Part shown: in pieces, positions 3,684 to 48,699 of the stretch
Layout: each line of letters opens with the position of its first letter
Numbering within the stretch: the stretch's first letter is position 1
Origin: Amyelois transitella
Lineage: Eukaryota; Arthropoda; Insecta; Lepidoptera; Pyralidae
DNA length: 64,000 nucleotides
Reading direction: 5' to 3'
Assembly (NCBI RefSeq): GCF_032362555.1
Contig: NC_083526.1
Location: forward strand, 1,694,001-1,758,000
Made by a program: the position numbers and the translations under genes
Notes under the pieces: model-generated
The model's input: only the letters and a program-made list of their open reading frames with translations
What the model was told of the DNA's origin: nothing
The model's database searches: none

Positions 3684-3945
3684 GATACATACATATAATC
3701 ACGTCTATATCCCTTGCGGGGTAGACAGAGCCAACAGTCTCGAAAAGACTGATAGGCTATGTTCAGCTATTTGGCTTTAAGATAGAATTGAGATTCAAAT
3801 AGTGACAGGTTGCTAACCCATCGCCTAAAAGAAGAATCCCAAGTTTATAAGCCTACCCCTCAGTCGCCTTTTACGACATCCATGGGAGCGAGATGGAGTA
3901 GTCCTATTCTTTTTCTATTGGTGCCGGGAACCACACGGCTGATAC
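3684..3945 (-). mobile_element. Family-A SINE-like element
   Basis: Nearly complete copy from ACATATAATCACGTCTATAT to CCGGGAACCACACGGC. Truncated relatives lie at 960-1105 (+), 2660-2770 (-), 4235-4375 (+) and 5895-6030 (-). Confidence 0.85.
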
Positions 3946-12500: not shown

Positions 12501-15500
12501 CCTTTGACCACGGATCATGGATTGGGTGAGTCAGGTTTTTACACGAATCGAATCACATTTGACCTTCGCAACCTTTGCAGGGGAACCTAACTCGTAATGA
12601 ACCGATCATGGTAACACATCCAGTTGCCTGAACGTGCAGGTTTCCTCACGATGTTTTCCCTCACCGCAAGACCATCGGTCAGTATTCAAACTAACGTACG
12701 TAACTTCGAAAATAATAAATCACTACATAGTATAAAACAAAGTCGCTATTTTAGTCTGTTTGTCTGTATGCTTAAATCTTTAAAATTACGCAACGGATTT
12801 TGATGCGGTTTTTTGTAACAGGTAGAGTGATTCAAGAGGAAGGTATTTATGTATAATAACATTTATAATTTTGCACCCCTGCGAAGCCGGGGCGGGTCGC
12901 TAGTAAATAATAATAAATAAAGAAATAATGTTTATTTCGGAAATTATCCATATATATATTGTTAGTAATTAACAAAGTAACTTAAAAAATATACTCTCAA
13001 CTTTTTTACTACTTCCACAGTTGCATCCAGAACATGCTCCGGGAACTTCATGAGGAAGGTCTCCATACTTCATCGGAGTGTCGTTCGTACCTCGGCAGGA
13101 TGTTCAGACAACGACTCTTCGAGTTACCACCCTGGGCTACTGATGAGGACGCCGCAGACTTCCTCCTGGATCGCTGTGTGATGATACATTTGAAGAGTCA
13201 TAAGGATAAATCCTATTCGTTGCTGTTCATGGCGCAGAAGCTGTTTGATTTGGTGCAGAATAAGTGCAAGGTATGTTTGGATTTCATTCCTTATGTAGTT
13301 TTGGAGGGTGTGGAGGGAAAGGTCGGAGTGGGAAGACCTAGACGAACGTATCTTGATCAAATTAAGGACGTCCTGGTAAAGGGTCAGGTCAAAAGTACCC
13401 GAAACCGTCGAGCTTGCATGAAGAGAGTTATGAATGTGGATGAAGCGAAGGAAATATTCAGAGATCGTGGCAAGTGGAAAGAGGTAGTCTCTGCCTACCA
13501 CTCCGGGAAAGAGGCGTGATTTTATGTATGTATGTAGTGTCTCGTTTTGTCTGTTAATATTCATTGTCACGTTACATCAAGTGAGATGGAAGACAAATGC
13601 CTAATTCAATGTTGATTTGAAAAAAAAAAAAACCTTTGCCAAATGGTTCTGGATTTTATTATGATTCTTCATCCTGGCTTTAGTCCCGGTTGCATCCTCA
13701 CTACTATGGAGATGAGCCCGGGGTATGCTTTTAATCTTGGATCTTGGTTTGGGTGGAGTCAGGTTTTTACACGAATCGACTCCCGTCTGACCTCCGCAAC
13801 CTTTGCAAGGGAACCTAACCTGTATTACATCGATCGTGGTTACACATTCAGTTGCTTGAATGTGCAGTTTTCCTCGCGATGTTTTGCCTCCCGTAAGAGT
13901 ATCGGTTAGTATACAAAGTAATGTACATAACTTCTAAAATAGTCATTGGTACACTGTCGACGCTGGATTCGAACCCGTGCCTTCCTGCGAATCACGCATT
14001 TTAACTGGGCAACTTACCGATTCGATTCAAAATTTTTATTCATTATTATAGGATACTTCATATCGCTTAATAATTTTCAAATCTCTTGGTGTCACAAAAT
14101 TGGTTGACGTCAAATAAATTACTTAAAACTAAGTTTACTGCCGCTTCCAAGGTGTCAGTGCGGAATAAGCGGTAACAAACGGTAACGAGTTACTTATGGA
14201 TACATACATACACACATATAGTCACGTCTATATCCCTTACGGGGCAGACAGAGCCAACAGTCCCGAAAAGACTGAATGGCCACGTTCAGCTGCTCGGCTT
14301 AATGATGGAATTGTGATCCAAATAGTGACAAGTTACTAGCTCATCGCCTAAAAAAAATAATCGCAATTTTGTAAGTATGATAGTGATATTGAAAGGAGAG
14401 TGAACGCGGGGAACATGGTGAATGGAGCTTTGCATGCCTTTATGAGCAGTCAGAAACTATCCAAAAAGGCTCGACTGGCTGTGCACAGGGGCGTGTTGGT
14501 CCCGACATTAATGTATGGGAGTGAAAGTTGGGTATGGCAAAAGAAGCATGAAAGCAGAATAAATGCAGTGGAAATGAGAGCGTTAAGGAGTATGATGGGT
14601 GTGAAATTGAGTGACAGGATAAGGAACAGCGTGATAAGGGAATGTTGTGATGTGAAAGAAGATGTAGTTACAGGAATAGAAAAGGGTATGTTAAGATGGT
14701 TCGGTCATGTGGAGAGGATGAATGAAAGCAGGTTGACTAAGCAGATATACAAGGAGAGTGTGGAGGGAAAGGTCGGAGTGGGAAGACCTAGACGAACGTA
14801 TCTTGATCAAATTAAGGACGTCCTGGTAAAGGGTCAGGTCAAAAGTACCCGAAACCGCCGAGCTTGTATGAAGAGAGTTATGAATGTGGACGAAGCGAAA
14901 GAAGTATGCAGAGATCGTGGCAAGTGGAAAGAGGTAGTCTCTGCCTACCCCTCCGGGAAAGAGGCGTGATTTTATGTATGTATGTATGTATGTTGTAAGC
15001 CTATCCCTTAGTCGCCTTACGACATCCACGGGAAAGAGACGGAGTGGTTCTATTCCATTTTTTTTATAGGTGCCGGGAAACCAAACGGCACAAATAAGTT
15101 AAGTAAGTAAGTAAGTTTATTTGCGTTAAAAATGGTATTACAGGTCAAAGTACATTTATGTTTCTCACTCTTAACCTAAAATAGGCATGCAAATTTCTGA
15201 ATTATGGATGATGTATTCTATTCCCCGCCAGGTGGAAGGCGCGGACGCGGTGATGATGCAGGAGTTGCTGCTGGGCGGCCACCTGTACCTGCAGGTGCTG
15301 AAGGAGCGGCTTCAGGCCACCATCGACGTGGTGAGGCTGCAGCTGGTGAGGAAGGCCAACGCTGCGAAGAAGGTCACGCTGACTCCTGTAAGTTTTTTTT
15401 TTTTTTTTTTTTTATATTATATATATTTTGATGGCAGTATTGTAATGAGGGTTAAGGAATTTTTCAAATAAATTTGTAAGTAATAAATTGTCAGTAACAT

Positions 15501-18500
15501 GTTTGATTCTAAGTAGAATATGTTAAAAGAAAAAACTAACACAATTTGTCATACAAAAATAAAATAAAATGTTAAAATAACATTTTATCTAAAATTTTAT
15601 ATATATTATATATTAATAAATTAATAAATACTCAATTTAAATTAATTTTATATATAAATAAATACTCAATTTCCCATGACTTTGAGAATTGTATTTACAT
15701 ACATACATGTAGTTACGTCTGTATCCCTTGCGGACAGAGCCAACAGTCTTGAAAAACCTTAAAGACCACATTCAGCTGTAAGGCTTTTTAATGGAATTGA
15801 GATTCAAAGAGGTGACAGGTTGCTAGCGCAAGTAGAGAAACAATTTTGTTTTCATTTATTTTCCAGATAAATTCCAAATAAAATAATAAATTTATACAGA
15901 ATTTGATTCCGTATAAATTTATTATTTTAGGCTCATATATATTTTATTCTGGTCGATGGGCTAGCAACCTGTCACTATTTGAATATCAATTCTATCATAC
16001 AGCCGAACGTGGCCTATTAGTTTTTTTAAGACTGTTGGCTCTGTCTACCCTGCAATGGATATAGATGTGACAAAATGAAAAAAAAAATAGCTTCAGCTTT
16101 ATAATATTAGTATAGATTTTATTCATTAATTTTCCCAGACTCAAATCCCCGACCTACTTCGCATGGCGGGCAAGTTGGACGCCAAAATGGAGACATTCCT
16201 GGCGACGGGCAATGCGCCCTCCAACAACGTGGCGCTGCCGCAGCACAAGGGGCTCACCATCGTGGCGGAGAACATCAACCGCATGCGGTACATGTCGCAT
16301 TTCAAGTGAGTAGGTTATTTATTAGAACCTCCTTTTTGGGCCGTCCGGTTGATAATATATTTTCGCACTTCCAATACTAACTTTATAAATTTAAAAAAAA
16401 CCATCGTGGCGGAGAAGATTAACTGGATGCGGTACATGTCGCATTTCAAGTGAGTAGGTTATTTATGAGAACCTCCTTTTTGGGAACGACCGGTTGATGA
16501 TATATTTTCGCTCTAAACAATATGGCAACGTTAAAAAATAAAATGTAGGTAGATGGCGCTCTTGTCGCGTTTTGTCGGTAACTGACACAAGATGGCAGCT
16601 TCTCAAGTTTGTAAGTGCTGGTTTGGTTTTATATACTTATATACTGAAATAAATTAACATATCTTTTGCCATGTAATGTTCTTCAGTAATTTATATATTT
16701 TCGACTATTGATGGCCAAGAGTACTCGAAGCCGACGAGCTTGCATGAAGACAGTTATGAAAGCGGATGAAGTGAAAGAAGCATGCAAGCATCGTGGCAAG
16801 TTGAAAGATGCGGTCTCTGCCTACCCCTCCGGGAAAGAGGCGTGATTTATGTATGTAAGCATGAATGGTCTGTTATACTGTGGTGTGACTGTCATAATTG
16901 TTCCGTTCCTGGGAACGTGTCCTCCAATAAAGTGGCGCTAGCGCAGCACAAGGGGCTCACCATCGTGGCGGAGAACATCAGCCGGATGCGATACATGTCG
17001 CATTTCAAGTGAGTAGGTTATTTATTAGAACTTCCTTTTTGGGACCGTTAGAATAGAATAGATTAATTTTCAAAATTGGGCACAAGGTATCACTTACTTA
17101 AATTAAGGACGTCCTGGTAAAGGGTCAGTTTAAAAGTACCCGAAACCGCCGAGCTTGTATGAAGAGAGTTATGAATGTGGATGAAGCGAAAGAAGTATGC
17201 AGGGATCGTGGCAAGTGGAAAGAGGTAGTCTCTGCCTACCCCTCCGGGAAAGAGGCGTGATTTTGTGTATGTGTGTATCACTTACTGACGTCACATCACT
17301 TAAATCTAATTATAATTACTACCGCTTCAAAGCTATTATGTGTTATTTATTAGAACCTCTTTTTTGGAACGTCCGGTTGAAGATACATTTTCGCACTTTC
17401 AATACTAACTTTATAAATTTTAAAGAAACCATCGTGGCGGAGAAGATTACCCGAATGCGATACATGTCGCATTTCAAGTGAGCCCGTTATTTATTAGAAA
17501 TAATATCTAATAAATCAAAATCAGTTGTGTAGTTTCATAGATATATACATACAAACAGACGCGGGAAGCGACTTTGCTTTATATTATTTAGTGATGTAGG
17601 AAGTAGATATAGTTGCAAAGTTACGTTATTTATTCACTACGGGAGACGGAAGGAGAAAAGAGGAGAGAAATAATCAAATAAATTAAAATACTATTATATT
17701 ATGGAAAAAAATAAAATGAATAATATTTGACAATAAAATATAAATTCTGTCATTTTTGTAACTAACTAACAAAACCATGGCAACCTTTGCTATGGCGTAC
17801 AAGAAGGTTGCCTACAGTGATACATACATACATACATAAAATCACGCCTCTTTCCCGGAGGGGTAGGCAGAGACTAAATCTTTCCACTTGCCATGATCTC
17901 TGCATACTTCGCTTCATCCACATTCAGTGATAAGTAAATAAAATTAAAGAACCCTTAAAGACTAGTATCTCACCCCAGGGCCATCCACCGCGGGTCATTC
18001 TTCATGGAGATGCGAACGACGGAGGCCCGCCAGTTGCTGCCAGACGCATGGGGCTTTGTCTGCCCCGTACACACTCCGGACGGTGCGCCGTGCGGACTGC
18101 TCAACCATCTCACTATGCATTGCCAGGTTTGATAGATAAATAAACATACATACATATAATACATACATACATACATATAATACATACATACATATGGTCG
18201 CGTCTACATCCCTTGAGGGGTAGACATACATACATATAGTTATGTACATACATAAACATGTAATCACGTCTATATCCCTTGCGGGGTAGACTAGACAGAG
18301 CCAACAGTCTTGTAAAGACTTATGGCCACGTTCAGCTGTTTGGTTTTAAGATAGAATATGGATTCAAATAGTGACAGGTTGCTAGCCCATCGCCTAGATC
18401 CTAGAAGAATCCCAAGTTTATAAGCCTACCCATTAGTCGCCTTTTACGACATCCATGGGAGAGAGATGGAGTGGTCCTATTCTTTTTTTTATTGGTGCCG

Positions 18501-21500
18501 GAAACCACGCGGCATAAAGATAAATAAAATATATGTATATATAAATACAAATCGGGACAAATTACACAGATTGAGTTAGCCTCGAAGTAAGTTCGAGACT
18601 TGTGTTACGAGATACTAACTCAACGATACTATATTTTATAATAAATACTTATATAGATAAACATCCAAGACCCAGGCCAATCAGAAAAAGTTCTTTTCTC
18701 ATCATGACCTGTTCGGGATTCGAACCCGGATATATAGATACACACATATATATATATACAAGTTATATACATACATAAACATATAATCACGTCTATATCC
18801 CATACGGGGTAGACAGAGCCAACAGTCTTGTAAAGGCTGTAAGGCCACGCTCGGCTGAATGGCTTCATGATGGAATTGAGATTCAAATAGTGACAGGTTG
18901 CTGACCCATCGTCTACAAGAAGAATCTCAAACTTACCGGCCTTTCCCTAAGTCACCTTTTACGACATCCATGAGAGAGATAGGCGAGTGATCCTATTCTA
19001 AAGTTCCGGAAACAACACGACATATCGCACCCCCGGTGCGACACTGTCACTTATGCAAAAACACAATTTAAAAGAGAAGCATTTAAAACTTTAACATCCC
19101 ATAACATTGTCATATTTGAAGATTTTTACAAGCTGAATAGCTTATACTGCGGTAACTATGTGTACTACAAAAGTAACGTTATCGCACCAAGTTAAGGGAA
19201 GCATTAGGAGAGTTATTACATATGTAACTCATTTTTGCAATTTTTGCATAAGTGACAGTGTCGCACCGGAGGTGCGATATAGTCCCATCGCGGTTATTAT
19301 ACACATGTAGACAGCTAATAATGTTGTTTTATTTATTTTTTTCAGGTTACACAGTGTCCTGATCCGAATCAACTAGCCAATCTACCGCTCGTCCTCAAAA
19401 AATATGGTAAAGTAACCTTTTAGTTATTTATAAATCTAAAAAAATAAAAAAAAAACATGTCTACGAACAAGTTTAAAATTATTGTTGTGACAACTGTGTT
19501 TATTTAAAAATTTTACACTGTTTTGCTATTATTTTGTATTAGATTAAGGCTCATTGTAAGTGAATTTATGTCTTTGTGAGTCAAATAAAGATCTTTAAAC
19601 CATACAACCTTCGTTCGCGCTAATTTAGCGCCACCTACAAAAAAATACAGGTTTTTCGCAAATCAGTCACGTCTACATGCCCTACGGGGTGAACGTAGCC
19701 AACAGACTTTATAGCGTTAAAAAAAACCGCCACATTCATCTGTGTATATACACGTGACTATGTGTATGTATGTGTTACTAGCTGTGCCCGCGACTTCGTT
19801 CGCGTGGAATAGTTATTTTGGGCATCATTGAAGCCCTCAAGGAGGAATAATTTTTTTTGACATATTCCATTATTTCTTCGCGCCAAATAGTTGCAGCGTG
19901 ATGATAAATAGCCTAAAGCCTTCCTCGAGAAATGGTCTATTAAACACAAAAAGACCACATTCGAACCAGTAGTTCCTGAGATAAGCGCGTTCAAATAAAC
20001 AAACAAACTCTTCAGTTTTATAATATTAGTAACTATAGATAAAGATTCATCCTTTCTATTTTGTACGAATAAAACATTATCAATCCTCCATATTCCCCCC
20101 AAAACATTAATAGTCCTCCATTTTTCTCCCAAGTACGAATAAAACATTATCAATCCTCCCAATTTCCGCCCCCAAGGTATGCAGCCGATCAGTTCTGTCA
20201 CCCAGAATCCTATCAGCCACGACGTGTACAAATACCCAGTGTTCCTGGACGGCAGACTTCTCGGCTACTTCTCCGAGGACACGGCTGCTGATGCCATGGC
20301 CTTCCTCCGAACACTGAAGGTGAAAGGCGAGGAGATACCAATAACAACGGAAATTGTGTTCGTGCCTAAAAAACAGGTTGGTTTTTTGTTTTTTAGGAAC
20401 CCAAATCCCAAGTTAATAAGCTTATCCCTTAGTCGCCTAATAGTAACTACGGTAATTGTGTTCGTGCCCAGGAAACAGGTTGGTTTTTTTTTTAGGAATT
20501 TAATACTTTTAGGGGGACTAAGGGATAGGCTTATTAACTGTGGATTGTTCTTTTAAACCCATTCGTTTCAGCAACCTGTCACTATTTGAATCTCAATTCT
20601 ATCATGAGCTTAATAGCTGAACATAGCCTGTGAGTTTTTTCAAGACTACGGGCTCTGTCTACCCCGCAAGGGATATAGACGTGATTATATGTATGTATGT
20701 TAGTTATCCCATTTATTCCAAATAAAATAATTATAAATTTTATCAAACGACGTCCTGGTAAAGGATCAGGTAAAAAGTACCCGAAACCGCCGAGCTTGCA
20801 CGAAGAGAGTTATGAATGTGGTTGAAGCGAAGGAAGTATGTAGAGATCGTGGCAAGTGGAAAGATGTAGTCTCTGTCTACTCCGGGAAAGAGGCGTGATT
20901 TTATTTATGTAGGTATGTATTTTTGTATGTAATTTTATCATCAGATATCCGCCCAATACCCTGGTATATTCCTGTTCACGACGGAAGCTCGCATGATGAG
21001 ATCCGTCATCAACCTGGCCACTGGAGCCCTGGAGCTGATCGGCACCATGGAACAGCTGTACCTGGACGTGGCTGTCACCCAGTCGGAAATTATCAAAGGT
21101 AATCTAAGTTTACTGTGTTAATAAATAAATCACTACATAGTATAAAACAAAGTCGCTATTTTAGTCTGTTTGTCTGTATGCTTAAATCTTTAAAATTACG
21201 CAACGGATTTTGATGTGGTTTTTTGTAACAGGTAGAGTGAATCAAGAGGAAGGTTTTTATGTATAATTTTTTCCGAATTTTTAACCCGTGCGAAGCCGGG
21301 GCGGGTCGCTAGTAAATATATACGGGACAAATTACACAGATTGAGTTAGCCTCGAAGTAAGTTCGAGACTTGTGTTACGAGATACTAACTCAACGATACT
21401 ATATTTTATAATAAACTAGCGGACCCGACAGACTTCGTTCTGTCAAAAAGATGTTAATTTTATAATAATTTGCATGCTATAATTCATGGCTGACCAGGAG

Positions 21501-24500
21501 AGGAAATATGTTTTGTTTTCACACCTTTTGTAAACCCTAGTCAAAAGCAAATAAATATTCTATTCTATAATAAATAAATAAATATACACGGGACAAATTA
21601 CACAGGTTGAGTTAGCCTCGAAGTAAGTTCGAGACTTGTGTTACGAGATACTAACTCAACGATACTATATTTTATAATAAATACTTATATTGATAAACAT
21701 CCAAGACCAATTGGAGAATGTGCGTTTTTCATCATGCCCTGGCCGGGATTCGAACCCGGGACCTCCGGTGTCACAGACAAGCGTATTACCGCTGCGCCAC
21801 AGAGGCCGTCTGTTAATATAAATATATAATGGTCCCCGGCACCATTAGAAAGAATAGGATCTGTTCCATCTCCATCTCTCTCCCATGGACGTCGTAAAAG
21901 GCGACTAAATATAGAAATAAGGCTGAAAATAATAACATATTTGCGCTGGCAAAGAAAAGATGATGTATGCTAAAAAGTGTCATTTATTATTTTCTTTTTT
22001 TTTTCTTATTTTAAATTACCATATGTTTGTTCTTTAGAAAGGAGTTCGTAACACTAAAAGATAGGCTAATAAACTTGGGAGTCTTCATTAAGGCGACAGG
22101 CTAGCAACCTGTCACTATTTGAATCTCAATTAAAGCAAACAGCTGACCTATCAGTTTTTTTAAGACTGTTGGCTCTGTCTACCCCACAAGGGATATAGAC
22201 GTGATTATATGTATGTATACATATAAATATATAAAAGTGAGAGCGTCGGTAGTCGAATAGGAAAGGTTACCACATAACCTTATCAACTCAAAATGCTGAA
22301 AACTGTTAAAAAAAGTGAATTTATAAGTTACTAGCGACCCGCCCCGGCTTCGCACGGGTGCAAAATTCGGAAAAAATTATACATAAAAACCTTCCTCTTG
22401 AATCACTCTACCTGTTACAAAAAACCGCATCAAAATCCGTTGCGTAATTTTAAAGATTTAAGCATACAGACAAACAAACTAAAATAGCGACTTTGTTTTA
22501 TACTATGTAGTGATACAGGTGATGAAGATTCTTTCTTTTTTTTTACAGGAAAAACAACGCATCTGGAGTTGTCAAAATCTGCATTCATGAGTAACTTGGC
22601 TCAGTTGGTGCCCATGCCGGATTGTAACCAGTCACCAAGGTAAAACTTTATTACGGTGCAGTGTAGTTTGTTCCGCCGCTTCTTCTACACAAGCGCGCTC
22701 TGGAAGCGGTTGTAGTTATAATTAGATTTGAGTGACGTGACGTCAATAATTGTATCCAATTTTGAAAGTAAATCTATTCTATTAATTAAAAACAATTAAA
22801 TATACAAGGTAACTTTTTCATAGAAAACGACACATTGATAATTGTATCACTGCACTGAATAAATGTGGATGAAATTTTACTTGAATTGTTAAAGATACAT
22901 ATAGCCTATGCTATGCTTAAAAGAGTTTTTTTGTAAATTGTACACAGCTGTTTTTTAATATGAATTTTTATTTTTTTTTCTTAATGACCTTTCTTCATAC
23001 ACATTCATCAATATTCTCTCATGCAAGCATTGAAGTTTATAATTAATTTTATCAATACATAAAGACGTTGATAATCAAGAGCTTATAAGCTTTCTAAATG
23101 GTTCCGAAAAATTGAGAACCCCCTATTTGGCACTCAATTCAAAATATCAGTATTGCAATGATGGCTTATCATCACATTATTCTATTTTCTCCCCACAGAA
23201 ATATGTACCAATGTCAGATGGGTAAACAAACTATGGGTACACCCATCCACACGTGGGCTACGAACGCTGAAACCAAGCTGTACAGGCTACAGACCCCTGC
23301 CACGCCTCTGTTCAGACCCACACACTACGACCATATAGGATTGGACGACTATCCCATGGGAACTAACGCTATTGTCGCTGTTATATCGTACACGGTGAGT
23401 TATTTAATTTTTAAAAAACCTGGTATTTTTGTTTCATTGTGTACAAAAGTGCCAGGGTACTGTACAGTCCCCTGTCATTCTCTTATTGGGATGTGAACTA
23501 AGTAAAAATATTAAATGATTAATACATGGTGATGTAACGTTTTAAACAGAGAATATTTTAACCCTAGAGACAAGGTAGGGTATTATAAAAGCATTATCGA
23601 GCTATACAGGCTACAGACCCCTGCCACGCCTCTGTTCAGACCCACACACTACGATCATATAGGATTGGACGACTATCCCATGGGAACTAACGCTATTGTC
23701 GCCGTTATATCGTACACGGTGAGTTATTTAATTTTTAAAAAACCTGGTATTTTTTGTTTCATTGTTTACAAAAGTGCCAGGGTACTGTATAGTGGAAGTA
23801 CAGTCCCCTGTCATTCTTCGTTTGGGATGTGAAATAAGTAAAAATATTAATTGATTAAAAGGTAGGGTATGATAAAAGCATTACCAAGCTAAACAGGCTA
23901 CAGACCCCTGCCACGCCTCTGTTCAGACCCACACACTACGACCATATAGGATTGGACGACTATCCCATGGGAACTAACGCTATTGTCGCTGTTATATCGT
24001 ACACGGTGAGTTATTTAATATATTTAATATGGTACTATAAAATACTAACAAAAATATGGTACTTTTGTGTCATTGTGTACAAAAGTGCCAGGGTACTGTA
24101 TAGTGGAAGTACAGTCCCCTGTCATTCTCCTATTGGGATGTGAACTAAGTGAAAATATTAAATGATTAATACATGGCGATGTAACGTTTTATACAGTGAA
24201 TATCTAAACCCCAGAGTCAAAAGAAAGGGTGACATAACAGCAGTATCAAAATATATAGGTTCCAGACCCCTGCCACGCTTTTATTCAGACCCACACACTA
24301 CAATCATAAATGATTGGAAGACTATCCCTTGAAAACTCTATATCTCATACGTTAAGTAATTCAATTGAAAAAAAATTGTGTTTTTATGTCAATCTCTGTG
24401 TACAAAAGTGCCAGGGGACTGTAAACTTAAAATACTTCATGCTTTAATTTAGATATAAATATACATATATTAGATAGATAAAACTCTTTATTGCACCATA

Positions 24501-27500
24501 AGAGTAAAACATACAAAACAACACAAAGCAGATATAGATGGTACAAAGGCGGACTTATCGCTAAAGCAATCTCTTCCAGTCAACCTTTGGGTGGAAGGAA
24601 ACCAAACAGGAGAGAGATATATTCAATTTCAAAACATTTAAATTTAATATATATTTCGTTTACGTATGATACGTACTAATGTCACGTCATTATTCCTCAT
24701 GGGGTAGACAGAGCCGAAATTGTTATTTGACACACACATTGACAAGATAGTTTTGAAAGCATACAAAGCGCTTGGCTTCGTTCTGAGATGTGCATCGTCA
24801 TTTCAGGACCTCAAAACAATAAAAGTACTGTTTTGTACCTACGTTCGTCCTCACCTGGAGTATGCCTCTCAAGTCTGGAATCCCGGATACAATCAATACA
24901 TAGATCGCATTGAGAGTATCCAGAGGAAGTTTATTCGGTATCTATGCTTCCGCCAAAAAGTTATCTTTAACTCTGACAGCTATTTAGACATGTGTAAAAG
25001 GCATCATCTGATCCCGTTAAAGGTCCGGCGAGACGTCGCTGACTTAGTCTATTTACTTAAGATAGCTTCAGGTACCGTCGACTCATCTGAACTTCTAGCA
25101 AAGGTTCAACTTTTTGCTCCCTCGAGGTTATTCAGATCCAGTCCCCTCATATTTGTTCCCGTGGTATCTACCAAATATCGCAAAAATTCGTTTATCTTGC
25201 GTGTGGGTAATAACTTTAATAGTATCTCCAGAACAGTCGACATTGACTTTTTTACTACAAGCATAGTGTCTGCAAAGCGGTTGCTTTATGAACATATGCT
25301 CCAATAAATGCACTGTTTTTTATACTCTTTATTAATTTGTATGTAAAATGCTCTTATCTAACTACCATACCTTACTTAATAATAACTATCACTTGCAACT
25401 GTATTAATTAAGTTATAAATAGCGTGTATAAAATATGTTCGTCCTTTGTAATAACTAATCAAATTCTAACAGTAAGACCTGTAAATTGGCTTTTCGTTTT
25501 GTATAACTGTTAACTTGTTATTAATATTGTAAGCTGTTGTCTTTAATAAATAAAATAAAAAAAAAAAAAATAAAGTCCGAGATAGTGAAGTCTGATATAT
25601 CAATAATTATTTTTTTTTACCCCAGGGCTACGACATGGAAGACGCGATGATAATCAACAAGTCATCATACGAGCGTGGTTTCGCCGCCGGCACAGTTTAC
25701 AAATCAGAGTTCGTTGAACTCAAGACCAGTTCATCATTTTTCCAAAGGGATCCCAACAAGCCTGAACTAGTTGAGTTTATGGATGAAGATGGGTTACCGG
25801 CGGTCGGAGCGAGGATACAACCTGACAGTCCGTTCTATTGGTAAGTGGAATTGATTCATTTTTTTTTTCTGAAGTACATACATACATATTATAATTACGC
25901 TTATATCCCTTGCGGGGTAGACAGAGCCAACAGACCATTCCAAGTTTGTAAGCCGATCCCTTAGTCGCCTTTTACGACATTCATGGTAAAGGGATGGAGT
26001 AGTCCTATTCTTTTTTCTGTTGGTGCCATTGATGATGATATTGATGATAGTGCCGTGTGGTTGCCGGCACCTACGGAAAAATGAATAGGACTACTCTATC
26101 TATTTACCATGGATGTCATAAAAGGCGACTAAGGGATAGGCTTTCAAACTTGGGATTCTTTTTAAGGCGATGGGCTAGCGACCTGTCACTATTTGAATCT
26201 CAATTATATCATTAAGCCAAAAAGCTGAACGTGGCCATTCAGTCTTTTCAAAACTGTTGGCTCTGACCTTATGTATGTATATGTATGTTATAAAAGAAAC
26301 AAATCACTAGCAATGGCGGACTTATCCCATGAGGGGTTTTTCTTCTTGTCACAGCTACTTCGACGGCGACAAGAGTCAGTACGTGGTACACAAATACCGC
26401 GGCAAAGAAGAGGTGTTTGTCGACAGCGTGAGGCTCTGCGGCGACTTCTCCACTCGCTCGCCGCCCACTGCCTGCATCATGCTGAGAATACAGGTATGCT
26501 GTCTCTGCCTACCCCTCCGGGAAACACGCGTGACTATATAATGAGTCGAGGAAAAAAAACGTGTGGTTCCCGGCACCAATAAAAAAAAGAATAGGACCAC
26601 TCCATCTCGTTCCCATGGATGTCGTAATAGGCGACTAAAGGATAGGCGTATAAACTTAGGATTCTTTTTTTAGGCGATGGGTTAATAACCTGTCGCTATT
26701 TGAATCTCAATTCCATCATAAAGCCAAACAGCTGAACGTGGCCTCTGTCTACCCCGCAAGGGATATAGACGTGATTATATGTATGTATGTATGTGAGGAA
26801 AAAACTTTACTACTTTGTAATCCGACAAATTCGATAGTCCGACAATGCCCTGCACAATGTTTGTCGGATTACCGATACAGGTCAAATTTGTTTTTTGTCC
26901 ACCCCCAGCGCAACCCGTCGGTGGGTGACAAGTTCGCGTCCCGCGCCGGCCAGAAGGGCATCTGCTCCCAGCGGTGGGCGGCCGAGGACCTGCCGTTCAC
27001 GGAGTCGGGGCTGATCCCCGACGTGATGTTCAACCCTCATGGGTTCCCCTCGCGGATGACCATCGCTATGATGATAGAGTGCATGGCCGGCAAGGCGGGT
27101 AGTCTACACGGTCATGTGAGTATTATATTTCCATTTTTATCTATCTTGGTTTACGTATCTTGATCAAATTGAGGACGTCCCGGTAAAGGGTCAGGTCGAG
27201 AGTACCGAGTGTCGTAAAAGGCGACTAAGGGATAGGCTTACAAACTTGGGATTCTTTTTTTAGACGATGGGCTAGCAACCTGTCACTATTTGAATCTCAA
27301 TTCTATCATTAAGCCAAATAGCTGAACGTGGCCTATCAGTCTGTTCAAGGCTGTTGGCTCTGTCTTCCCCGTAAGGGATAAAGACGTGATCATATGTATG
27401 TATGTAATATTATTACAGACCTAGACGAACGTATCTTGATCAAATTAAGGACGTCCTGGTAAAGGGTCAGGTCGAAAGTACCCGAAACCGCCGAGCTTGC

Positions 27501-30500
27501 ATGAAGAGAGTTATGAATGAAGCGATGGAAGTATGCAGAGATCGTGGCAAGTGGAAAGAGGTAGTCTCTGCCTACCCCTCCGGGAAAGAGGCGTGATTTT
27601 ATGTATGTATGTATGTATGTTTATCTTGGTTTTGTAGGCAATCTTCTTGGTATACGCCATGGCAACGGTTGTCGTGGTTTTGTTAGTTAGAAGAATGACA
27701 ATGCATGACATACATGACATGAGTGCCGTGTGGTTCCCGGCACCGATACAAAAAAGAATAGGATCACTCCCATCTGTTTCCCATGGATGTCGTAAAAGGT
27801 GATTAAGGGATAGGCTTACAAACTTGGGATTCTGTTTTTAGGCGATGGGCTAGCAACCTGTCACTATTTGAATCTCAATTCTATTATTAAGCCAAATAGC
27901 TGAACGTGGCCATTCAGTATTTTCAAGACTATGGCTCTGTCTACCCCGCAAGGGATATAGACGTGATTATATGTATGTTTGAATGTAAAATAATCTATTC
28001 TTTTCATCTAGGTCCACGATGCAACACCGTTCCGTTTCACAGAGAAAGATACAGCTATCAATTACTTCGGTCGGTTGCTCGAAGCGGGCGGGTACAATTA
28101 CTACGGAACGGAACGTATGTACAGCGGCGTCGACGGCAGGGAAATGACGGCGGACATCTTTTTCGGTGTCATACACTACCAGAGACTAAGGCACATGGTG
28201 TCGGATAAGTGGCAGGTGAGATTTTTGTGTACCAATGTAAATGATTTGTAACAATGCTGTACATTTGAATATAGTTTTTTATATTTATTATTCAAAAACG
28301 TATAAACTATCAGTACAGTGCCCGCGACTTTCTCCGCGTGGAATAGTTATTTTGGGCATCATTGAAGCCCTCAAGGATGAATAATTTTACCCGTTTTTTT
28401 TTCACATTTTCCCATTATTTCCTTCTTCAATAAATGGTCTATTCAACACAAAAATAATTTTTCAATCCGAACCAGTAGTTCCTGAGATAAGCACGTTCAA
28501 ACAAACAAACTCTTCAGCTTTATAATGTTAGTGTAGATGTACAAAAAATTATATACAGCAGCATTTAATACATGAGCCTATATGTTCGTGGTATTACATT
28601 CATAGAAAGAAGAAAGAAAGAAAAATATTTTATTTGATATCACAAACGTAACTATACTAAGTAACAGGATTTTACATTTGTGCATTTTTGTGAATATCAA
28701 AAAGGAAGCATCATCATATCCTTCACCCAGTTTTGTCCAAAGGTTCGACTGGCAGAGAATGCCTTGTGGCATTAAGTCCACCTGTTGTACATTTTACGTG
28801 CATAAAGTTTTAATAAATATTTTTTTTTTGCACCAGGTCCGTACAACGGGCATGGTGGACGCGATGACCCGTCAGCCCGTCAAAGGCAGAAGACGTGGCG
28901 GCGGAGTGCGCCTCGGGGAGATGGAGAGAGACGCCTTGCTCTCACACGGCGCCGCTTTCCTACTGCAGGACAGACTGTTCCATTGCTCTGATAAGAGTCA
29001 GGTTAGTTCATAAAGTGTGCCAATAGATGGCGCTGTCAAAAAATTTTAGGTTTTTCGGGGAGATGTAGAGGGACGCCTTGCTCTCACACGGCGCCGCTTT
29101 CTGACTGTAGAACAGATTGCTTGGATAAGAGTCAGGTTAGTTCATAAAGTGTGCTAATAGATGGCGCTGACAAAAAATTTAACGTTTTATGGGGAGATGG
29201 AGAGAGACGCCTTGCTCTCACACGGCGCCGCTTTCTGACTGTAGAACAGATTGCTTCATTGCTTGGATAAGAGTCAGGTTAGTTCATAAAGTGTGCTAAT
29301 AGATGGCGCTGTCAAAAAGTTTAAGGTTTTTCGGGGAGATGGAGAGAGACTCCTTGCTTTCACACGGCGCCGCTTTCTGACTGTAGAACAGATTGCTTCA
29401 TTGCTTGGATAAGAGTCAGGTTAGTTCATAAAGTGTGCTAAAAGATGGCGCTGTCAAAAAATTTAAGGATTTTCGGGGAGATGGAACGAGACGCCTTGCT
29501 CTCACACGGCGCCGCTTTCCTGCTGCAGGACAGACTGTTCCATTGCTCGGATAAGAGTCGGGTTAGTTCATAAAGTGTGCTAATAGATGGCGCTGTCAAA
29601 ACATTTGAGATTTTTTGGGGAGATGGAGAGAGACGCCTTGCTCTCACACGGCGCCGCTTTCCTACTGCAGGACAGATTGTTCCATTGCTCGGATAAGAGT
29701 CAGGTTAGTTCATAAAGTGTGCTAATAGATGGCGCTGTCAAAACATTTGAGATTTTCGGGGAGATGGAACGAGACGCCTTGCTCTCACACGGCGCCGCTT
29801 TCCTACTGCAGGACAGATTGTTCCATTGCTCGGATAAGAGTCAGGTTAGTTCATAAAGTGTGCTAATAGATGGCGCTGTCAAAAAATTTAAGGTTTTTTC
29901 GGGGAGATGGAGAGAGACTCCTTGCTTTCACACGGCGCCGCTTTCTGACTGTAGAACAGATTGCTTCATTGCTTGGATAAGAGTCAGGTTAGTTCATAAA
30001 GTGTGCTAATAGATGGCGCTGTCGAAAAGTTTAAGGTTTTTCGGGGAGATGGAGAGAGATGCTTTGCTCTCACACGGCGCCGCTTTCCTACTGCAGGACA
30101 GATTGTTCCATTGCTCTGATAAGAGTCAGGTTAGTTCATAAAGTGTGCTAATAGATGGCGCTGTCAAAACATTTGAGAATTTTTGGGGAGATGGAGAGAG
30201 ACGCCTTGCTCTCACACGGCGCCGCTTTCCTGCTGCAGGACAGATTGTTCCATTGTTCGGATAAGAGTCAGGTTAGTTCATAAAGTGTGCCAATAGATGG
30301 CGCTGTCAAAAAATATATATAATTTCCGAGCTCAGGCAAGAGCTAAGTATGGTTCAAAAGAAGGCTACTACATATAGGATATACATACATAATAACATCA
30401 CGTCTATATCCCTTGCGGGGTAGACAGAGCCAGCAGTGTTGAAAAGACTGAAAGACCACGTTCAGCTGTATGACTTAAGATTTTGACTGGTGGCTAGCCC

Positions 30501-31400
30501 ATCTCGCCTACAAGAAGAGATCCTGAGCTTATAAGTCTTTCCTTCAATCGCCTTTTACGACATCCATGGGAAAGATATGGAGTGGTTCTATTCTAAAGTG
30601 CCGGCACAATCTAAACAAATAAAAATAGATTTATTCAATCACGTTTTTTTTCCTTTCTTAAGCATAATGCTTTTTCGCACACATTTCTAATTCTGATTTG
30701 GACTATTATCATGCATCATTTTTATATTATAGTATAGATACACTTATCTATTTACACTTGTTAAAATATTATTTTTAAGTATTATTATATTACACGGCAC
30801 GATCTAGGTTGTTTCAATTGACAAAATTCTCATCTTTCGCCGTGTGGTTCCCGGCACCATTACAAAAAAGAACAGGACCACTCCATCTCTTTCCCATGGA
30901 TGTCGTAAAAGGCGTCTAAGGAATAGGCTTATAAACTTGGGATTCCTCTTTTAGGCGATGGGCTGGCGACCTGTCACTATTTGAATCTCAATTCTATCAT
31001 AAAGCCAAACAGCTGGACGTGGCCATTCAGTCTTTTCCAGACTGTTGGCTCTGTCTACCCCGCAAGGGATATAGACGTGACCATATGTATGTATCTATCT
31101 ATCTATCTATTTACGCTTGTCAAAATATTATTTTTTAAGTATTATTTCATTACACGGCACAATTTAAGTTGCTTAAATTGACAAAATTCTCATCTTTACC
31201 AGGCTGTGCTGTGCATAAAATGCGGTTCTCTCCTCGGGCCGATAGTGGGACGCACTGAAGGGGAATGCTGCCGCCTGTGCTCCGGCGAGCTGGCGACCGT
31301 CTCCATACCCTACATCTTCAAGTTCTTCGTCACCCAGTTGGCCTCCGTGAACATTCATGTCAAGATCAAATGCAATCAACAGTTGGCTATCACTTGTTAG
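9513..31400 (+). CDS. POLR1B: DNA-directed RNA polymerase I subunit RPA2 (second-largest subunit), 20 exons
   Basis: This is the second-largest catalytic subunit of RNA polymerase I, which transcribes the pre-rRNA in the nucleolus. Exons: 9513-9599, 9709-10038, 10459-10551, 10927-11073, 11977-12149, 13021-13270, 15232-15387, 16139-16305, 17979-18126, 19346-19406, 20177-20376, 20945-21098, 22549-22639, 23199-23394, 25626-25840, 26355-26493, 26909-27115, 28012-28215, 28837-29001, 31203-31400 (TAG). All junctions are GT-AG with matching phases, giving 1126 aa; human POLR1B is about 1135. Family motifs are visible: [13 protein letters not shown] (exon 14), [13 protein letters not shown] (exon 15), [13 protein letters not shown] and [10 protein letters not shown] (exon 17), [11 protein letters not shown] (exon 18), [12 protein letters not shown] (exon 19), and a C-terminal zinc site CIKC..CRLC (exon 20). 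The start was chosen because the first ATG opens a 29-codon exon with a good donor. Exon ends 8, 11, 14 and 19 are copied into the following introns. The gene is convergent with Nop56. Confidence 0.97.
10570..10845 (-). mobile_element. Family-A SINE-like element in RPA2 intron 3
   Basis: Nearly complete copy, ending GCCGGGAACCACACGGCA. A decayed sense copy lies at 10100-10350 in the same intron. Confidence 0.85.
11230..11568 (+). mobile_element. LINE 3' fragment, degraded
   Basis: The motifs [17 protein letters not shown] and [17 protein letters not shown] are recognisable despite frameshifts. The tail is short (ATTTTATGAATG). Confidence 0.8.
12720..12903 (+). mobile_element. Helitron-like element, family H3, 184 bp
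   Basis: TCACTACATAGTATAAAACA at the start and GGGGCGGGTCGCTAG at the end, between A and T, in RPA2 intron 5. Confidence 0.83.
13309..13537 (+). mobile_element. LINE 3' fragment (same family as 14376)
   Basis: It encodes [20 protein letters not shown] through [16 protein letters not shown], followed by the TATG tail. It lies 38 bases after the RPA2 exon 6 donor. Confidence 0.88.
13660..14025 (-). mobile_element. tRNA-derived SINE, family T2
   Basis: A box-B-like GGTTCGAATCC is on the minus strand near 13965. The body reads on the plus strand as GGCTTTAGTCCCGGTTGCAT, GGATCTTGGTTTGGGTGG, ACCTCCGCAACCTTTGCA and CTCGCGATGTTTTGCC. Partial relatives: 4795-4940 (+), 7505-7600 (-), 12435-12710 (-), 32920-33085 (-), 46625-46720 (-), 56325-56450 (+). 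Confidence 0.75.
14200..15094 (-). mobile_element. Family-A SINE-like element split by a LINE
   Basis: The two halves are 14200-14375 and 14993-15094; the LINE at 14376-14992 separates them. Confidence 0.85.
14376..14992 (+). mobile_element. 5'-truncated non-LTR retrotransposon (LINE) with (TATG)n tail, inserted in a family-A element
   Basis: It encodes the end of a reverse-transcriptase [63 protein letters not shown] and AYPSGKEA before TGA, then ATTTTATGTATGTATG. The 7-bp target duplication TTGTAAG (14369-14375 and 14993-14999) splits a family-A retroelement whose halves lie at 14200-14375 and 14993-15094. It is the longest copy in the window of the LINE that left many shorter 3' fragments. 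The clade is probably RTE-like but not proven. Confidence 0.9.
15880..15928. repeat. Short inverted repeat in RPA2 intron 7
   Basis: AAAATAATAAATTTATAC and its complement, continued by GAAT/ATTC, around a 3-nt loop; one mismatch. Confidence 0.9.
16716..16857 (+). mobile_element. LINE 3' fragment
   Basis: Related to 14376 from the [10 protein letters not shown] region to the end of the ORF and the TATG tail, with several substitutions. It sits between copies of the exon 8 end. Confidence 0.8.
17099..17278 (+). mobile_element. LINE 3' fragment
   Basis: Runs from ATTAAGGACGTCCTGG to GGCGTGATTTTGTG, encoding [20 protein letters not shown]. It is close in sequence to 14376 and lies inside the exon 8 repeat region. 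Confidence 0.85.
18195..18513 (-). mobile_element. Family-A SINE-like element in RPA2 intron 9, with expanded ACAT repeats
   Basis: The body is complete to GCCGGAAACCACGCGGCA. Its tail side shows nested partial copies of GTCACGTCTATATCCCTT-type sequence separated by ACAT repeats (18140-18260). Another copy follows at 18770-19020. Confidence 0.85.
19025..19277. mobile_element. 253-bp MITE with about 36-bp terminal inverted repeats, TA flanks
   Basis: Both ends read TCGCACCNCCGGTGCGACAC and continue to ATGCAAAA with one mismatch overall; TA dinucleotides flank the element at 19023 and 19278. Each terminus is also self-complementary (TCGCACC..GGTGCGA). TA duplication fits Tc1/mariner-type MITEs, but the family is not certain. 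It lies in RPA2 intron 9, just upstream of exon 10. Confidence 0.75.
19778..20039 (-). mobile_element. Helitron-like element, family H1, in RPA2 intron 10
   Basis: Full-length relative of 433-701 with CTAG at 19778-19781. It is followed by a short run of TATCAATCCTCC-type repeats up to exon 11. A decayed copy lies at 28312-28537. Confidence 0.8.
20445..20497 (+). repeat. Partial copy of RPA2 exon 11 end plus donor
   Basis: About 45-50 bases repeat the exon 11 end (EIVFVPKKQ, donor GTTGGT at 20377). The copy has ATTGTGTTCGTGCC then AGGAAACAG and the same GTTGGT donor followed by T-rich intron. A fragment of the family-A retroelement lies between the exon and its copy. Confidence 0.75.
20512..20702 (+). 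mobile_element. Family-A SINE-like element, 5'-truncated
   Basis: Runs from GGGGGACTAAGGGATAGG to the TATG tail. It lies in RPA2 intron 11 after the copied exon end. Confidence 0.82.
20748..20925 (+). mobile_element. LINE 3' fragment
   Basis: Starts at GACGTCCTGGTAAAGG and ends in GGCGTGATTTTATTTATG. It lies just before RPA2 exon 12. Confidence 0.82.
21130..21312 (+). mobile_element. Helitron-like element, family H3, 183 bp
   Basis: Nearly identical to 12720-12903. It inserted next to a tRNA-derived SINE fragment in RPA2 intron 12. Confidence 0.83.
21566..21808 (-). mobile_element. tRNA-derived SINE, family T1
   Basis: Minus strand starts GGCCTCTGTGGCGCAGCGGT (A-box-like) and has GGTTCGAATCCC (B box), followed by a non-tRNA body and an A/T-rich ATTTATTTATT tail. 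Other copies: 18550-18732 (head lost), 21316-21416 (tail side only), 37188-37425 in Nop56 intron 3, 52262-52470. Confidence 0.85.
21835..22218 (+). mobile_element. Family-A SINE-like element interrupted by about 150 bases
   Basis: The head at 21835-21908 (GGTCCCCGGCACC) and the rest at about 22057-22218 are separated by unrelated A/T-rich sequence of unknown type. Confidence 0.75.
22331..22513 (-). mobile_element. Helitron-like element, family H3, 183 bp
   Basis: Minus copy with CTAG at 22331-22334, ending 35 bases before RPA2 exon 13. Confidence 0.83.
23281..24400 (+). repeat. Repeated copies of RPA2 exon 14 end plus donor in intron 14
   Basis: The 3' part of exon 14 ([19 protein letters not shown] through AVISYT, then GTGAGT) and the adjoining intron recur from about 23605 and 23891, with intact frame and donor, and again near 24255 in decayed form. 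Spacing is about 324, 286 and 362 bases. The copies have no obvious splice acceptor. Confidence 0.93.
24474..24640 (-). mobile_element. LINE 3'-UTR-like fragment ('GGCGGACTTA' family)
   Basis: Contains CTCTTTATTGCA (reverse of a polyadenylation-type end) and GTACAAAGGCGGACTTATCG. Related fragments occur at 712-790, 48205-48265, 56615-56700 and around the MITE at 58795-59165, and in the opposite direction at 28575-28820. Confidence 0.55.
24718..25573 (+). mobile_element. 5'-truncated jockey-like LINE with poly(A) end
   Basis: An open frame of about 195 codons ends at 25307. It contains [37 protein letters not shown] and [19 protein letters not shown], the region after the catalytic motifs in jockey-type reverse transcriptases. 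A 3' UTR follows and ends in AATAAATAAAAT plus an A-run. It lies in RPA2 intron 14 just upstream of exon 15. The open frame suggests a fairly recent insertion. Confidence 0.87.
25876..26290. mobile_element. Two family-A SINE-like elements head to head
   Basis: A minus copy (25876-26032) is followed within about 12 bases by a plus copy (26044-26290), so the transcript of RPA2 intron 15 contains a long imperfect inverted repeat. Confidence 0.82.
26560..26795 (+). mobile_element. Family-A SINE-like element in RPA2 intron 16
   Basis: From CGTGTGGTTCCCGGCACC to the TATG tail with a small internal deletion. Two more sense copies follow in intron 17 at 27200-27408 (5'-truncated) and 27724-27980 (full). 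Confidence 0.85.
27413..27628 (+). mobile_element. LINE 3' fragment
   Basis: Runs from AGACGAACGTATCTTGATC to GGCGTGATTTTATGTATG with a long TATG tail. A smaller fragment of the same LINE lies at about 27155-27205. Confidence 0.85.
28915..30320 (+). repeat. Tandem array of RPA2 exon 19 end plus donor plus intron, 142-bp unit, 10 units
   Basis: The last 87 bases of exon 19 (from GGGGAGATGG), its donor GTTAGT and about 55 bases of intron are repeated. Units start near 28915 (the real exon), 29057, 29191, 29333, 29475, 29617, 29758, 29901, 30043 and 30185. Two subtypes occur. One keeps CTACTGCAGGACAG and an intact frame ([20 protein letters not shown]). The other has CTGACTGTAGAACAG, which carries stops. 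Every unit retains GAGTCAG or GAGTCGG before GTTAGT. Confidence 0.95.
30380..30605 (-). mobile_element. Family-A SINE-like element in RPA2 intron 19
   Basis: Somewhat decayed minus copy starting ATCACGTCTATATCCCTTGC. A sense copy at 30838-31115 lies in the same intron before exon 20. Confidence 0.82.
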
Positions 31401-47334: not shown

Positions 47335-48117
47335 TGAATTAGCTTTCACGGAAGGATTGTGTGTTAGAACTGGCTTTCACGAAAGAATTGTGTGTGAGAA
47401 CTAGCTTTCACGAAAAGATTGTGTGTCAGAACTAGCTTTTACGAAAAGATTGTGTGCGTGAAACAGTTTTCATGAAAAGATTGTGTGTTAGAATTACCTT
47501 TCACGAAAAGATTGTGTGTAAGAACTAGCTTTCACAAAAAGATTGTGTGTTAGAACTAGCTTTCACGAAAAGATTGTGTGTAAGAACTAGCTTTCACGAA
47601 AAGATTGTGTGTAAGAACTAGCTTTCACGAAAAGATTGTGTGTCAGAACTAGCTTTCACGAAAAGACTGTGTGTTAGAACTAGCTTTCATGAAAAGATTG
47701 TGTCAGAACTAGCTTTCACGAAAAGATTGTGTGTAAGAACTAGCTTTCATGAAAAGATTGTGTGTCAGAACTAGCTTTCACGAAAAGATTGTGTGTCAGA
47801 ACTAGCTTTCACGAAAAGATTGTGTGTAAGAACTAGCTTTCATGAAAAGATTGTGTGTCAGAACTAGCTTTCACGAAAAGATTGTGTGTCAGAACTAGCT
47901 TTCACGAAAAGATTGTGTGTAAGAACTAGCTTTCACGAAAAGATTGTGTGTAAGAACTAGCTTTCACGAAAAGATTGTGTGTCAGAACTAGCTTTCACGA
48001 AAAGACTGTGTGTTAGAACTAGCTTTCATGAAAAGATTGTGTCAGAACTAAGCTTTCATGAAAAGATTGTGTGTCAGAACTAGCTTTCACGAAAAGATTG
48101 TGTGCCAGAACTAGCTT
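47335..48117. repeat. 31-bp minisatellite, about 25 units
   Basis: The unit is GAACTAGCTTTCACGAAAAG followed by ATTGTGTGTMA, with single-base variants (CACG/CATG, TAA/TCA/TTA). Several units are shortened to GTGTCA. Blocks of several units recur in the same variant order, suggesting larger duplications inside the array. It lies just upstream of the first coding exon of the dehydrogenase. Confidence 0.93.
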
Positions 48118-48699
48118 TTAGATTTTGGCTTTAGATTTAGATTGTTGGCTCTATCTACCCCGCGAGGGATATGAACGTGACTATATGTATTTGTATGTAT
48201 AGGATGTAGGTACAAAAAGCGGACTTAATGCCGTTTGCATTCTCTACAAGTCTACCAGAGGTTGCTTCAATAAAAGGCACTGAATGAGGCCTTTCAGTGT
48301 TTCCAAGACTGTCGGCGTGGTCTATCCCGCAAGAAAAATAAACGTGATATTTATGCAAAGTCTGATAAATGCTTGGGTCAAAAAATTACGACACAAACAC
48401 TAAGTTGTTGACACAAAGACGAGACATTACGAAACTTATTGTTTGAGCCATCATTTTTAATTCGTCGGTCAATGAAAAGAGGTTATTAGGTAAAGTACAT
48501 ACTGACGATAAATGATGTTAAACTGTTTAGTCTTTAGATTTTGCGATCACAATATCAGCTGTTTTTCTTTCAGATTGTAAAAGTCAAGGGAAAGGCTTCT
48601 TAACTTGAGATCTATTTTTAAGCGATGGGTTAGCAACTTCCAGGTGAACGTGTCTTTCGAGTCTTTTCGATACTCTTTCCTCTCTAAATATTGTTAATG

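Follow-up and report, generated by a model that had tools for sequence, protein, structure and literature searches.

Why should an exon's tail and the splice donor that follows it be copied into the following intron several times over, and is this a property of one gene? The question is raised by the gene for the second largest subunit of RNA polymerase I (RPA2) in Amyelois transitella, which lies in a stretch of 64,000 nucleotides, the whole of which is called here the window. An earlier note on this DNA had reported four exons of the gene with such copies and read them as a sign of a recurring process or of a tolerance for decoy donors.

Exon-tail copies in the RPA2 gene

The rebuilt RPA2 model is a single unbroken frame of 1,126 amino acids across 20 coding exons. 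The top solved-structure match of the protein is the Pol I subunit RPA2 (7ob9_B, E = 0, query residues 9–1116). Self-alignment of the locus and alignments of the copies bear out the reported counts of downstream tail-and-donor copies, that is, three for exon 8, one for exon 11, three for exon 14 and nine for exon 19 (Table 1). Every unit starts within the exon and extends beyond the donor position, so that neither the acceptor nor the beginning of the exon is included, as the earlier note had it.

Table 1. Positions of the RPA2 gene, its duplicated exons and their copies in the window
Feature	Position	Strand	Description	Evidence
RPA2 gene	9513..31400	+	RNA polymerase I second largest subunit; 20 coding exons	spliced translation, solved-structure match
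Exon 8	16139..16305	+	copy source; copied part from 16218 or 16256 to about 16399	
Exon 8 copy 1	16400..16514	+	144-bp unit, abuts source directly; donor GTGAGT retained	
Exon 8 copy 2	16921..17048	+	reaches further back into the exon than copy 1 does; donor retained	
Exon 8 copy 3	17342..17499	+	includes intron-start/copy-1 junction; donor GTGAGC	
Exon 11	20177..20376	+	copy source; copied part 20342–20399	
Exon 11 copy	20444..20498	+	102-bp unit; donor GTTGGT retained	
Exon 14	23199..23394	+	copy source; copied part from about 23272	
Exon 14 copy 1	23600..23858	+		self-alignment, copy alignment, genome search
Exon 14 copy 2	23883..24247	+		self-alignment, copy alignment, genome search
Exon 14 copy 3	24254..24423	+	decayed, about 73% identical over the unit; donor gone	
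Exon 19	28837..29001	+	copy source; unit 28913–29054	
Exon 19 array	29055..30317	+	nine extra units of about 142 bp	
Intronic-only copy	30745..30837	+	copy of 31104–31197, next to the acceptor of exon 20; contains no exon sequence	

The four cases differ in structure. The exon 19 array consists of 9.9 copies of 142 bp arranged head to tail, and its extra units are five nearly silent variants interleaved with four that contain in-frame stops. Copies 2 and 3 of exon 8 abut no other exon 8 unit in the self-alignment, and the junction carried by copy 3 shows that it derives from an already duplicated state. The intronic pair near exon 20 has a dispersed repeat between its two members.

The copies differ among themselves by substitutions and indels, and their ages differ. 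This argues against an artefact of misassembled repeats, as do the return of the pattern at unrelated places (see below) and the contig sizes of 7.8 to 14.0 Mb, where a size is given, and we consider such an artefact very improbable.

The donor GT is retained in all ten exon 19 units and in six of the seven other RPA2 copies, the exception being exon 14 copy 3. Such retention would be expected if the extra donors were useful, that is, if repeated U1-binding sites strengthened the true donor or shielded long introns from premature polyadenylation, and selection kept the arrays. Three of the four affected introns indeed exceed 1.6 kb (1,673, 2,231 and 2,201 bp), although the arrays themselves contribute to this length. 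However, young copies would retain GT even without selection, several copies have stop codons in their exon parts, and the donor is lost in exon 14 copy 3 and absent from a downstream copy at another locus (L040). Hence we regard a useful role of the donors as improbable.

Still less probable is use of the copies in RNA, either as longer alternative exon ends, as might be the case for exon 11, or as small cassette exons formed via an acceptor-like site in the unit, as might be the case for exon 19 and for a helicase array at locus L057. If extended to the donor of its copy, exon 11 would gain 102 nt, in frame and stop-free, and the exon 19 units assigned to type A preserve the protein sequence save for one residue in one copy. 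On the other hand, in-frame stops are present in four of the nine exon 19 copies, and six of the seven decoy donors that were checked would, if used, bring an in-frame stop.

The same arrangement in other genes

Exon-tail copies past the donor recur in unrelated kinase and helicase genes (loci L042, L043, L055/L061, L057 and L058), and thus a process specific to RPA2 is ruled out. The recurrence suggested in the earlier note is supported, but it extends beyond RPA2. Four of these loci come from a sample chosen regardless of repeats. They are L042, with an exon-tail array of a 171-bp unit; the kinase gene at L055/L061, with a 138-bp unit; L043, where two decayed copies lie downstream of the exon and the nearer one has a donor-like GTAAAT; and L058, with two arrays. 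The L040 copy, from the same sample, is an exon-internal piece without the donor. The first L058 array derives from a helicase exon (162-bp unit), whereas the parent exon of the second (156-bp unit) lies beyond the fetched end. The L057 helicase stretch, fetched on account of its array, has a 195-bp exon-tail unit. The L057, L055/L061 and L058 arrays are multi-copy and head to tail, as in exon 19. Thus, RPA2 and several unrelated genes show head-to-tail copying of the exon tail and donor into the next intron.

Search with the Helicase_C profile for more arrays yielded one case. The ABC_tran, AMP-binding and DEAD domain searches produced no further exon-tail arrays on visual inspection, and the protein kinase search nothing beyond L045. 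This candidate, suggested by overlapping kinase profile ranges, was withdrawn, as the match to the profile had extended across an intron. Where matches in L021, L025, L026 and L027 fell on other predicted exons, they were taken to reflect adjacent copies of a gene and excluded.

Counts and one-sidedness

The repeat-blind sample comprises 21 stretches (154.5 kb) with 119 predicted exons. In the exon count, pseudo-exons of the L058 arrays were removed, and two exons (L040 6907–7113 and L058 1749–1942) were entered by hand. The tallies do not include L018, where the exon is only probable, and L027, apparently at a gene end, both with downstream partial copies; pairs consisting mostly of dispersed repeat on both sides, as well as a 31-bp minisatellite at 47336, were also left out. 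As a chance control, the 270 predicted exons of all loci gave 57 matches at E < 0.01, compared to nine on reversed flanks. RPA2 accounts for 16 of these (E of 2.3e-15 or better) and L057 for eight, the remaining 33 being mostly weak or to neighbouring gene copies.

Four exon-tail arrays in the sample pass the strict tandem criterion, and two more downstream copies (L040 and L043) are older or truncated; no acceptor-side copies of exon sequence were found in the 21 stretches. Hence the ratio of downstream to upstream cases is 4 to 0 in RPA2 alone, 4 to 0 (strict) or 6 to 0 (with L040 and L043) in the repeat-blind stretches, and 8 to 0 (p = 0.008) or 10 to 0 (p = 0.002) in both taken together, the sample being small. 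L057, chosen for its array, also carries one acceptor-side copy containing exon sequence; when both its sides are included, the ratio is 11 to 1 (p = 0.006). Random placement of the observed unit lengths yields practically equal shares for donors (9.7%) and acceptors (9.8%).

RPA2 has copies at four of its 19 donors, compared to four to six of the 119 predicted exons elsewhere (Fisher p 0.013 to 0.032). The parent exons of the L055 array and the second L058 array are outside the 119, and with only the arrays whose parents were counted the comparison is with 2 of 119 (p = 0.003). This is weak evidence for an enrichment of RPA2, since RPA2 was the gene that drew attention.

Exon-tail events also exceed the placement expectation when set against seven non-exonic events (L040 5197, L041 7923, L042 7466, L043 590, L043 3414, L052 1612 and L060 3711), with 4 vs 7 in the strict count (p = 0.045) and 6 vs 7 otherwise (p = 0.0037). 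The event at L043 3414 overlaps a predicted exon made of dispersed-repeat sequence.

This excess per available position could mean that mutation itself is directed, if the exon–intron boundary in transcribed genes, with its GC step, bound U1, RNA–DNA hybrids or stalled replication, favoured breaks or slippage and so raised the rate of donor-side duplication. The four events within RPA2 alone and the GC content of this gene (52% in exons, 37% in introns) agree with such a mechanism, but acceptor boundaries, where base composition changes in the same way, are not enriched in the sample. Moreover, the breakpoints are at varied distances from the donor, and in nine junctions the microhomology at the left breakpoint is at most one shared base, with no evident common motif. 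We therefore consider directed mutation unlikely.

Origin of the copies and relation to known systems

With moderate confidence, we suggest that small tandem duplications across exon–intron boundaries have been kept by their position, some of them growing into minisatellites. Ordinary tandem duplication would be followed by filtering through splicing. If the unit begins within an exon and ends in the intron that follows, the first copy would keep the acceptor, the whole exon and the donor. The extra copies would then be exon tails that lack the parent acceptor and lie beyond the true donor, where splicing could ignore them. A unit extending from the upstream intron into the exon would place an extra acceptor upstream of the true one, where it would tend to be used; such copies would change the message and be removed, as would exon-internal duplications, which alter the protein. 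There is one published precedent, the potato RdRp gene, where a tandem duplication across the acceptor gave rise to a new intron, the upstream copy of the acceptor being used (PMC4974935). Thus survival is probably one-sided, only copies downstream of the donor leaving the message intact.

Tolerance of decoy donors, judged by position and frame, appears to be the best-supported part of the interpretation in the earlier note. However, tolerance alone does not account for the excess of exon-tail over non-exonic tandem duplications per available position, as a pure filter predicts no excess over neutral events. The acceptor-side copy in L057 also counts against the filter. The zero on the acceptor side fits the non-exonic rate (about one expected in this small sample), and so does not by itself prove purging of acceptor copies.

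Once present, an array may be renewed through unequal exchange with its live exon, itself held constant by selection; it might then grow and outlast a neutral intronic repeat. In two arrays most differences between the copies and the live exon are silent, suggesting that the array is reseeded from that exon. Distinct differences number eight silent and one replacement in exon 19 type A copies (p = 1.2e-4), the type split having been made post hoc, after the copies were inspected, and six and one in the first L058 array (p = 0.0026). The eight ungapped exon 19 copies pooled show 11 silent and seven replacement differences (p = 0.0012). In five other sets (exon 19 type B, exon 14, exon 8, L057 and L055) the silent-site excess is not significant. 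Three gapped or decayed units (exon 19 copy 1, exon 14 copy 3 and one L055 unit) were omitted from this comparison. Coding constraint on the copies is not general, and their exon-derived parts show no consistent extra conservation relative to the intron-derived parts. Two of the eight silent changes in type A are common to nearly all copies and may have arisen in the exon.

A bolder reading, which we offer only tentatively, is that the live exon serves as a permanent seed, its tail and donor being continually re-copied, so that thousands of self-renewing arrays may exist genome-wide in this lineage. Were this so, they would form a one-sided repeat class recording past exon alleles and providing donors from which new exons and introns could readily be made. 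If one-sidedness as such holds genome-wide, it provides a natural experiment on splice-site choice, which would reveal selection on a decoy donor after the true donor as compared to a decoy acceptor before the true acceptor; it would also identify a source of pre-formed intronic splice sites and a repeat class that could mislead the prediction of genes and the assignment of orthologues from exons in genomes of this kind.

Donor-side exon-tail arrays are not described in the titles and abstract openings among the matches listed from the largely open-access literature. In tandem exon duplication, whole exons are copied with both splice sites. Exon sequence is likewise repeated beside the original in RPA2, but the copies begin inside the exon and contain neither its upstream part nor the acceptor. 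With intronic minisatellites, the exon 19, L055/L061, L057 and L058 arrays share several head-to-tail units of 138–195 bp with variants, while exons 8, 11 and 14 have few copies; the difference is that the first unit here is partly live coding exon and donor, and that, in the sample, exon tails carry more than their share of such arrays. Introners and other intron-creating mobile elements likewise affect introns of several genes in one genome. In contrast, the copies considered here are local: among the best-scoring candidates in the genome, exon 14 with its intron start has four matches and exon 19 with its intron start has ten, all in the RPA2 locus, and hence these two units are not dispersed.

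A close parallel is intron gain by tandem duplication in potato (PMC4974935) and Drosophila (PMC2891723, PMC3296678), also involving short tandem duplications with exon sequence and splice signals. There, the duplication crosses the acceptor or sits within coding sequence, and the message gains an intron. In RPA2 of this species, the donor is crossed, the extra copies stay within an existing intron, and the coding frame through the original donors is unchanged and gives no sign of a newly gained intron.

Structure of the RPA2 copies

The window lies on contig C22 (1694001-1758000) of a genome of 327 Mb in 33 contigs. The gene for the second largest subunit of RNA polymerase I, RPA2, is on its plus strand, with 20 coding exons whose spliced translation is a single intact frame of 1,126 amino acids; the closest relative of the product with a solved structure is Pol I RPA2. 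The Pfam domain search of the genome lists nine matches, on contigs C22, C1 and C4; those on C1 and C4 are interpreted as the paralogues from Pol II and Pol III.

Self-alignment of the locus, together with copy alignments, bears out the earlier note both in its counts of extra copies (three for exon 8, one for exon 11, three for exon 14 and nine for exon 19) and in its description of the unit, which in every RPA2 case starts inside the exon and ends beyond the donor position. Such tandem copies are called exon-tail arrays here. In exon 8, copy 2 has a start point farther upstream than the other two copies, and the junction created by copy 1 is present in copy 3; thus exon 8 by itself records several events. 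The third copy of exon 14, which has lost its donor, is old. Searches scoring the best candidates only yielded no match to the units of exons 14 and 19 elsewhere in the genome.

Use of six of the seven decoy donors checked in RPA2 would introduce a stop; the exon 11 decoy, if used, would add 34 codons in frame. The exon 11 copy is flanked by oppositely oriented pieces of one dispersed repeat, so that a strand could fold back around it. The acceptor-like site within the exon 19 units would, together with the unit's donor, define a 33-nt in-frame mini-exon.

Coordinates and unit lengths of the arrays and other repeats
Stretch	Positions	Length	Feature
RPA2		144 bp	exon 8 unit
RPA2	20400-20570 (copy with flanking repeat pieces)	102 bp	exon 11 unit
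RPA2		324 bp	exon 14 unit
RPA2	28960-29001 and equivalents (acceptor-like site and mini-exon)	142 bp	exon 19 unit, with internal acceptor-like CTACTGCAG
RPA2	30745-30837 / 31104-31197	93 bp	intronic duplication ending ~5 bp upstream of the exon 20 acceptor; dispersed repeat between copies
Window	14384-14965; also in many introns		dispersed repeats with TATG runs at the end
Window	47336-48118	31 bp, ~25 copies	minisatellite outside RPA2
Window	61777-62130 / 62711-63064	354 bp	identical direct repeats, 934 bp apart
L058 (helicase)	3778-5000, minus strand	156 bp	array encoding a helicase exon tail, with an inverted segment within
L057 (helicase), reverse complement	1171-1311	70 bp	acceptor-side tandem duplication spanning intron end, acceptor and exon start
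L057 (helicase), reverse complement	~1500-1530 and repeats		acceptor-like TCATTTCAG in the intron part of the 195-bp units

Arrays in kinase and helicase genes

For comparison, 21 stretches surrounding exons of kinases and helicases were picked without regard to repeats (154.5 kb; individual loci carry L-numbers). Exons were predicted by a small coding model with RPA2 in its training set; it finds 19 of the 20 RPA2 exons, some with inexact ends, and missed one kinase exon in L040. A tandem event was counted as strict if the aligned length was at least half of the unit, the unit being 40-700 bp. Underlying the tallies are 119 exons, predicted rather than annotated, and some decisions made by hand.

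Strict exon-tail arrays were found in L042 (one), L055 (one) and L058 (two). The L042 unit is mostly a dispersed repeat past the exon end, and the L055 parent exon was confirmed from stretch L061. The second L058 array received no exon-tail score from the script; its position was assigned from the minus-strand translation, its parent exon lying beyond the fetched end, and the tail it encodes is that of a SAT-motif exon. Below the strict criterion, L043 has two decayed exon-tail copies, the nearer with a donor-like GT, and L040 has an exon-internal piece downstream, without a donor. Exon-tail copying is real and extends beyond RPA2. The recurring process proposed in the earlier note gains support from the same arrangement in L042, L055, L058 and L043, but RPA2 is not the sole gene affected.

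The L057 helicase, chosen for its repeated domain matches, through which its 195-bp array was detected, is kept apart from the main tallies. Its 70-bp duplication is the sole acceptor-side copy with exon sequence seen. Given the acceptor-like site in the intron part of the units, which apparently adjoins dispersed-repeat sequence, a tail copy there could turn into a full exon.

Placement of events and a possible mechanism

When units of the observed lengths are placed at random on the unselected stretches, 64% are non-exonic, 9.7% cross a donor, 9.8% cross an acceptor, 14% lie within an exon, 1.3% cover a whole exon and 0.8% span more than one exon. The strict counts in these stretches were four exon-tail to seven non-exonic events (p = 0.045 against placement), or six to seven with L040 and L043 added (p = 0.0037); no acceptor-side, inside-exon or whole-exon events were seen in the 21 stretches (154.5 kb). 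RPA2 has four strict exon-tail events, and a pair of dispersed repeats makes up its one non-exonic event. For RPA2 and the unselected stretches together, the strict criterion gives eight downstream events and no upstream one (p = 0.008). Adding the looser cases makes it 10 to 0 (p = 0.002), and entering L057 with both of its sides makes it 11 to 1 (p = 0.006). In RPA2, 4 of 19 donors are affected, a higher rate than among the other exons (p from 0.013 to 0.032; 0.003 when the parent exons are restricted to those within the counted set), but the RPA2 window was chosen for its arrays.

A duplication from an exon into the downstream intron would keep the order of acceptor, exon and true donor and add tails without the parent acceptor. 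After a duplication across the acceptor, the decoy acceptor would come first. A potato RdRp gene (PMC4974935) exemplifies the latter case: splicing there uses the upstream copy of the acceptor, and a new intron arises. Intron gains from duplicated coding sequence in Drosophila (PMC2891723) are related. Such a splicing filter could account for the survival of donor-side events and the loss of others, but does not by itself explain the excess over non-exonic events per position. Candidate explanations of that excess are seeding from the live exon, a boundary-linked mutation bias, and usefulness of the extra donors. The cause is likely ordinary in each component, as judged from a small sample of predicted exons; in the literature searched we found no description of the combination, frequency or one-sidedness of exon-tail arrays.

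History of the copies and other repeats

Divergence is greater in the exon part of some copies and in the intron part of others, and several copies contain stop codons; therefore coding constraint on the copies is not general. Five of the nine exon 19 copies, grouped after the sequences were inspected, differ from the live exon by eight distinct silent changes and one replacement (expected replacement share 0.75, p = 1.2e-4); pooling all eight ungapped copies gives 11 silent and seven replacement changes (p = 0.0012). The first L058 array shows six silent changes and one replacement (p = 0.0026). The silent excess could come in part from changes in the live exon, kept silent by selection. In this L058 array each of the five copies has five silent differences from the exon, and the copies differ little from each other in that part, so that change on the exon side is a reasonable alternative in that case. 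At exon 19, two changes occur in all but one of the eight ungapped copies, the other seven in one or two copies each. The simplest reading of the exon 19 sequences is that functional exon sequence may have been repeatedly fed into the array, e.g. by unequal exchange between haplotypes.

Elsewhere in the window, one of the TATG-ending dispersed repeats carries a reverse-transcriptase-like C-terminal frame. The 354-bp repeat pair may belong to a short element with terminal repeats, or stem from a very recent duplication.
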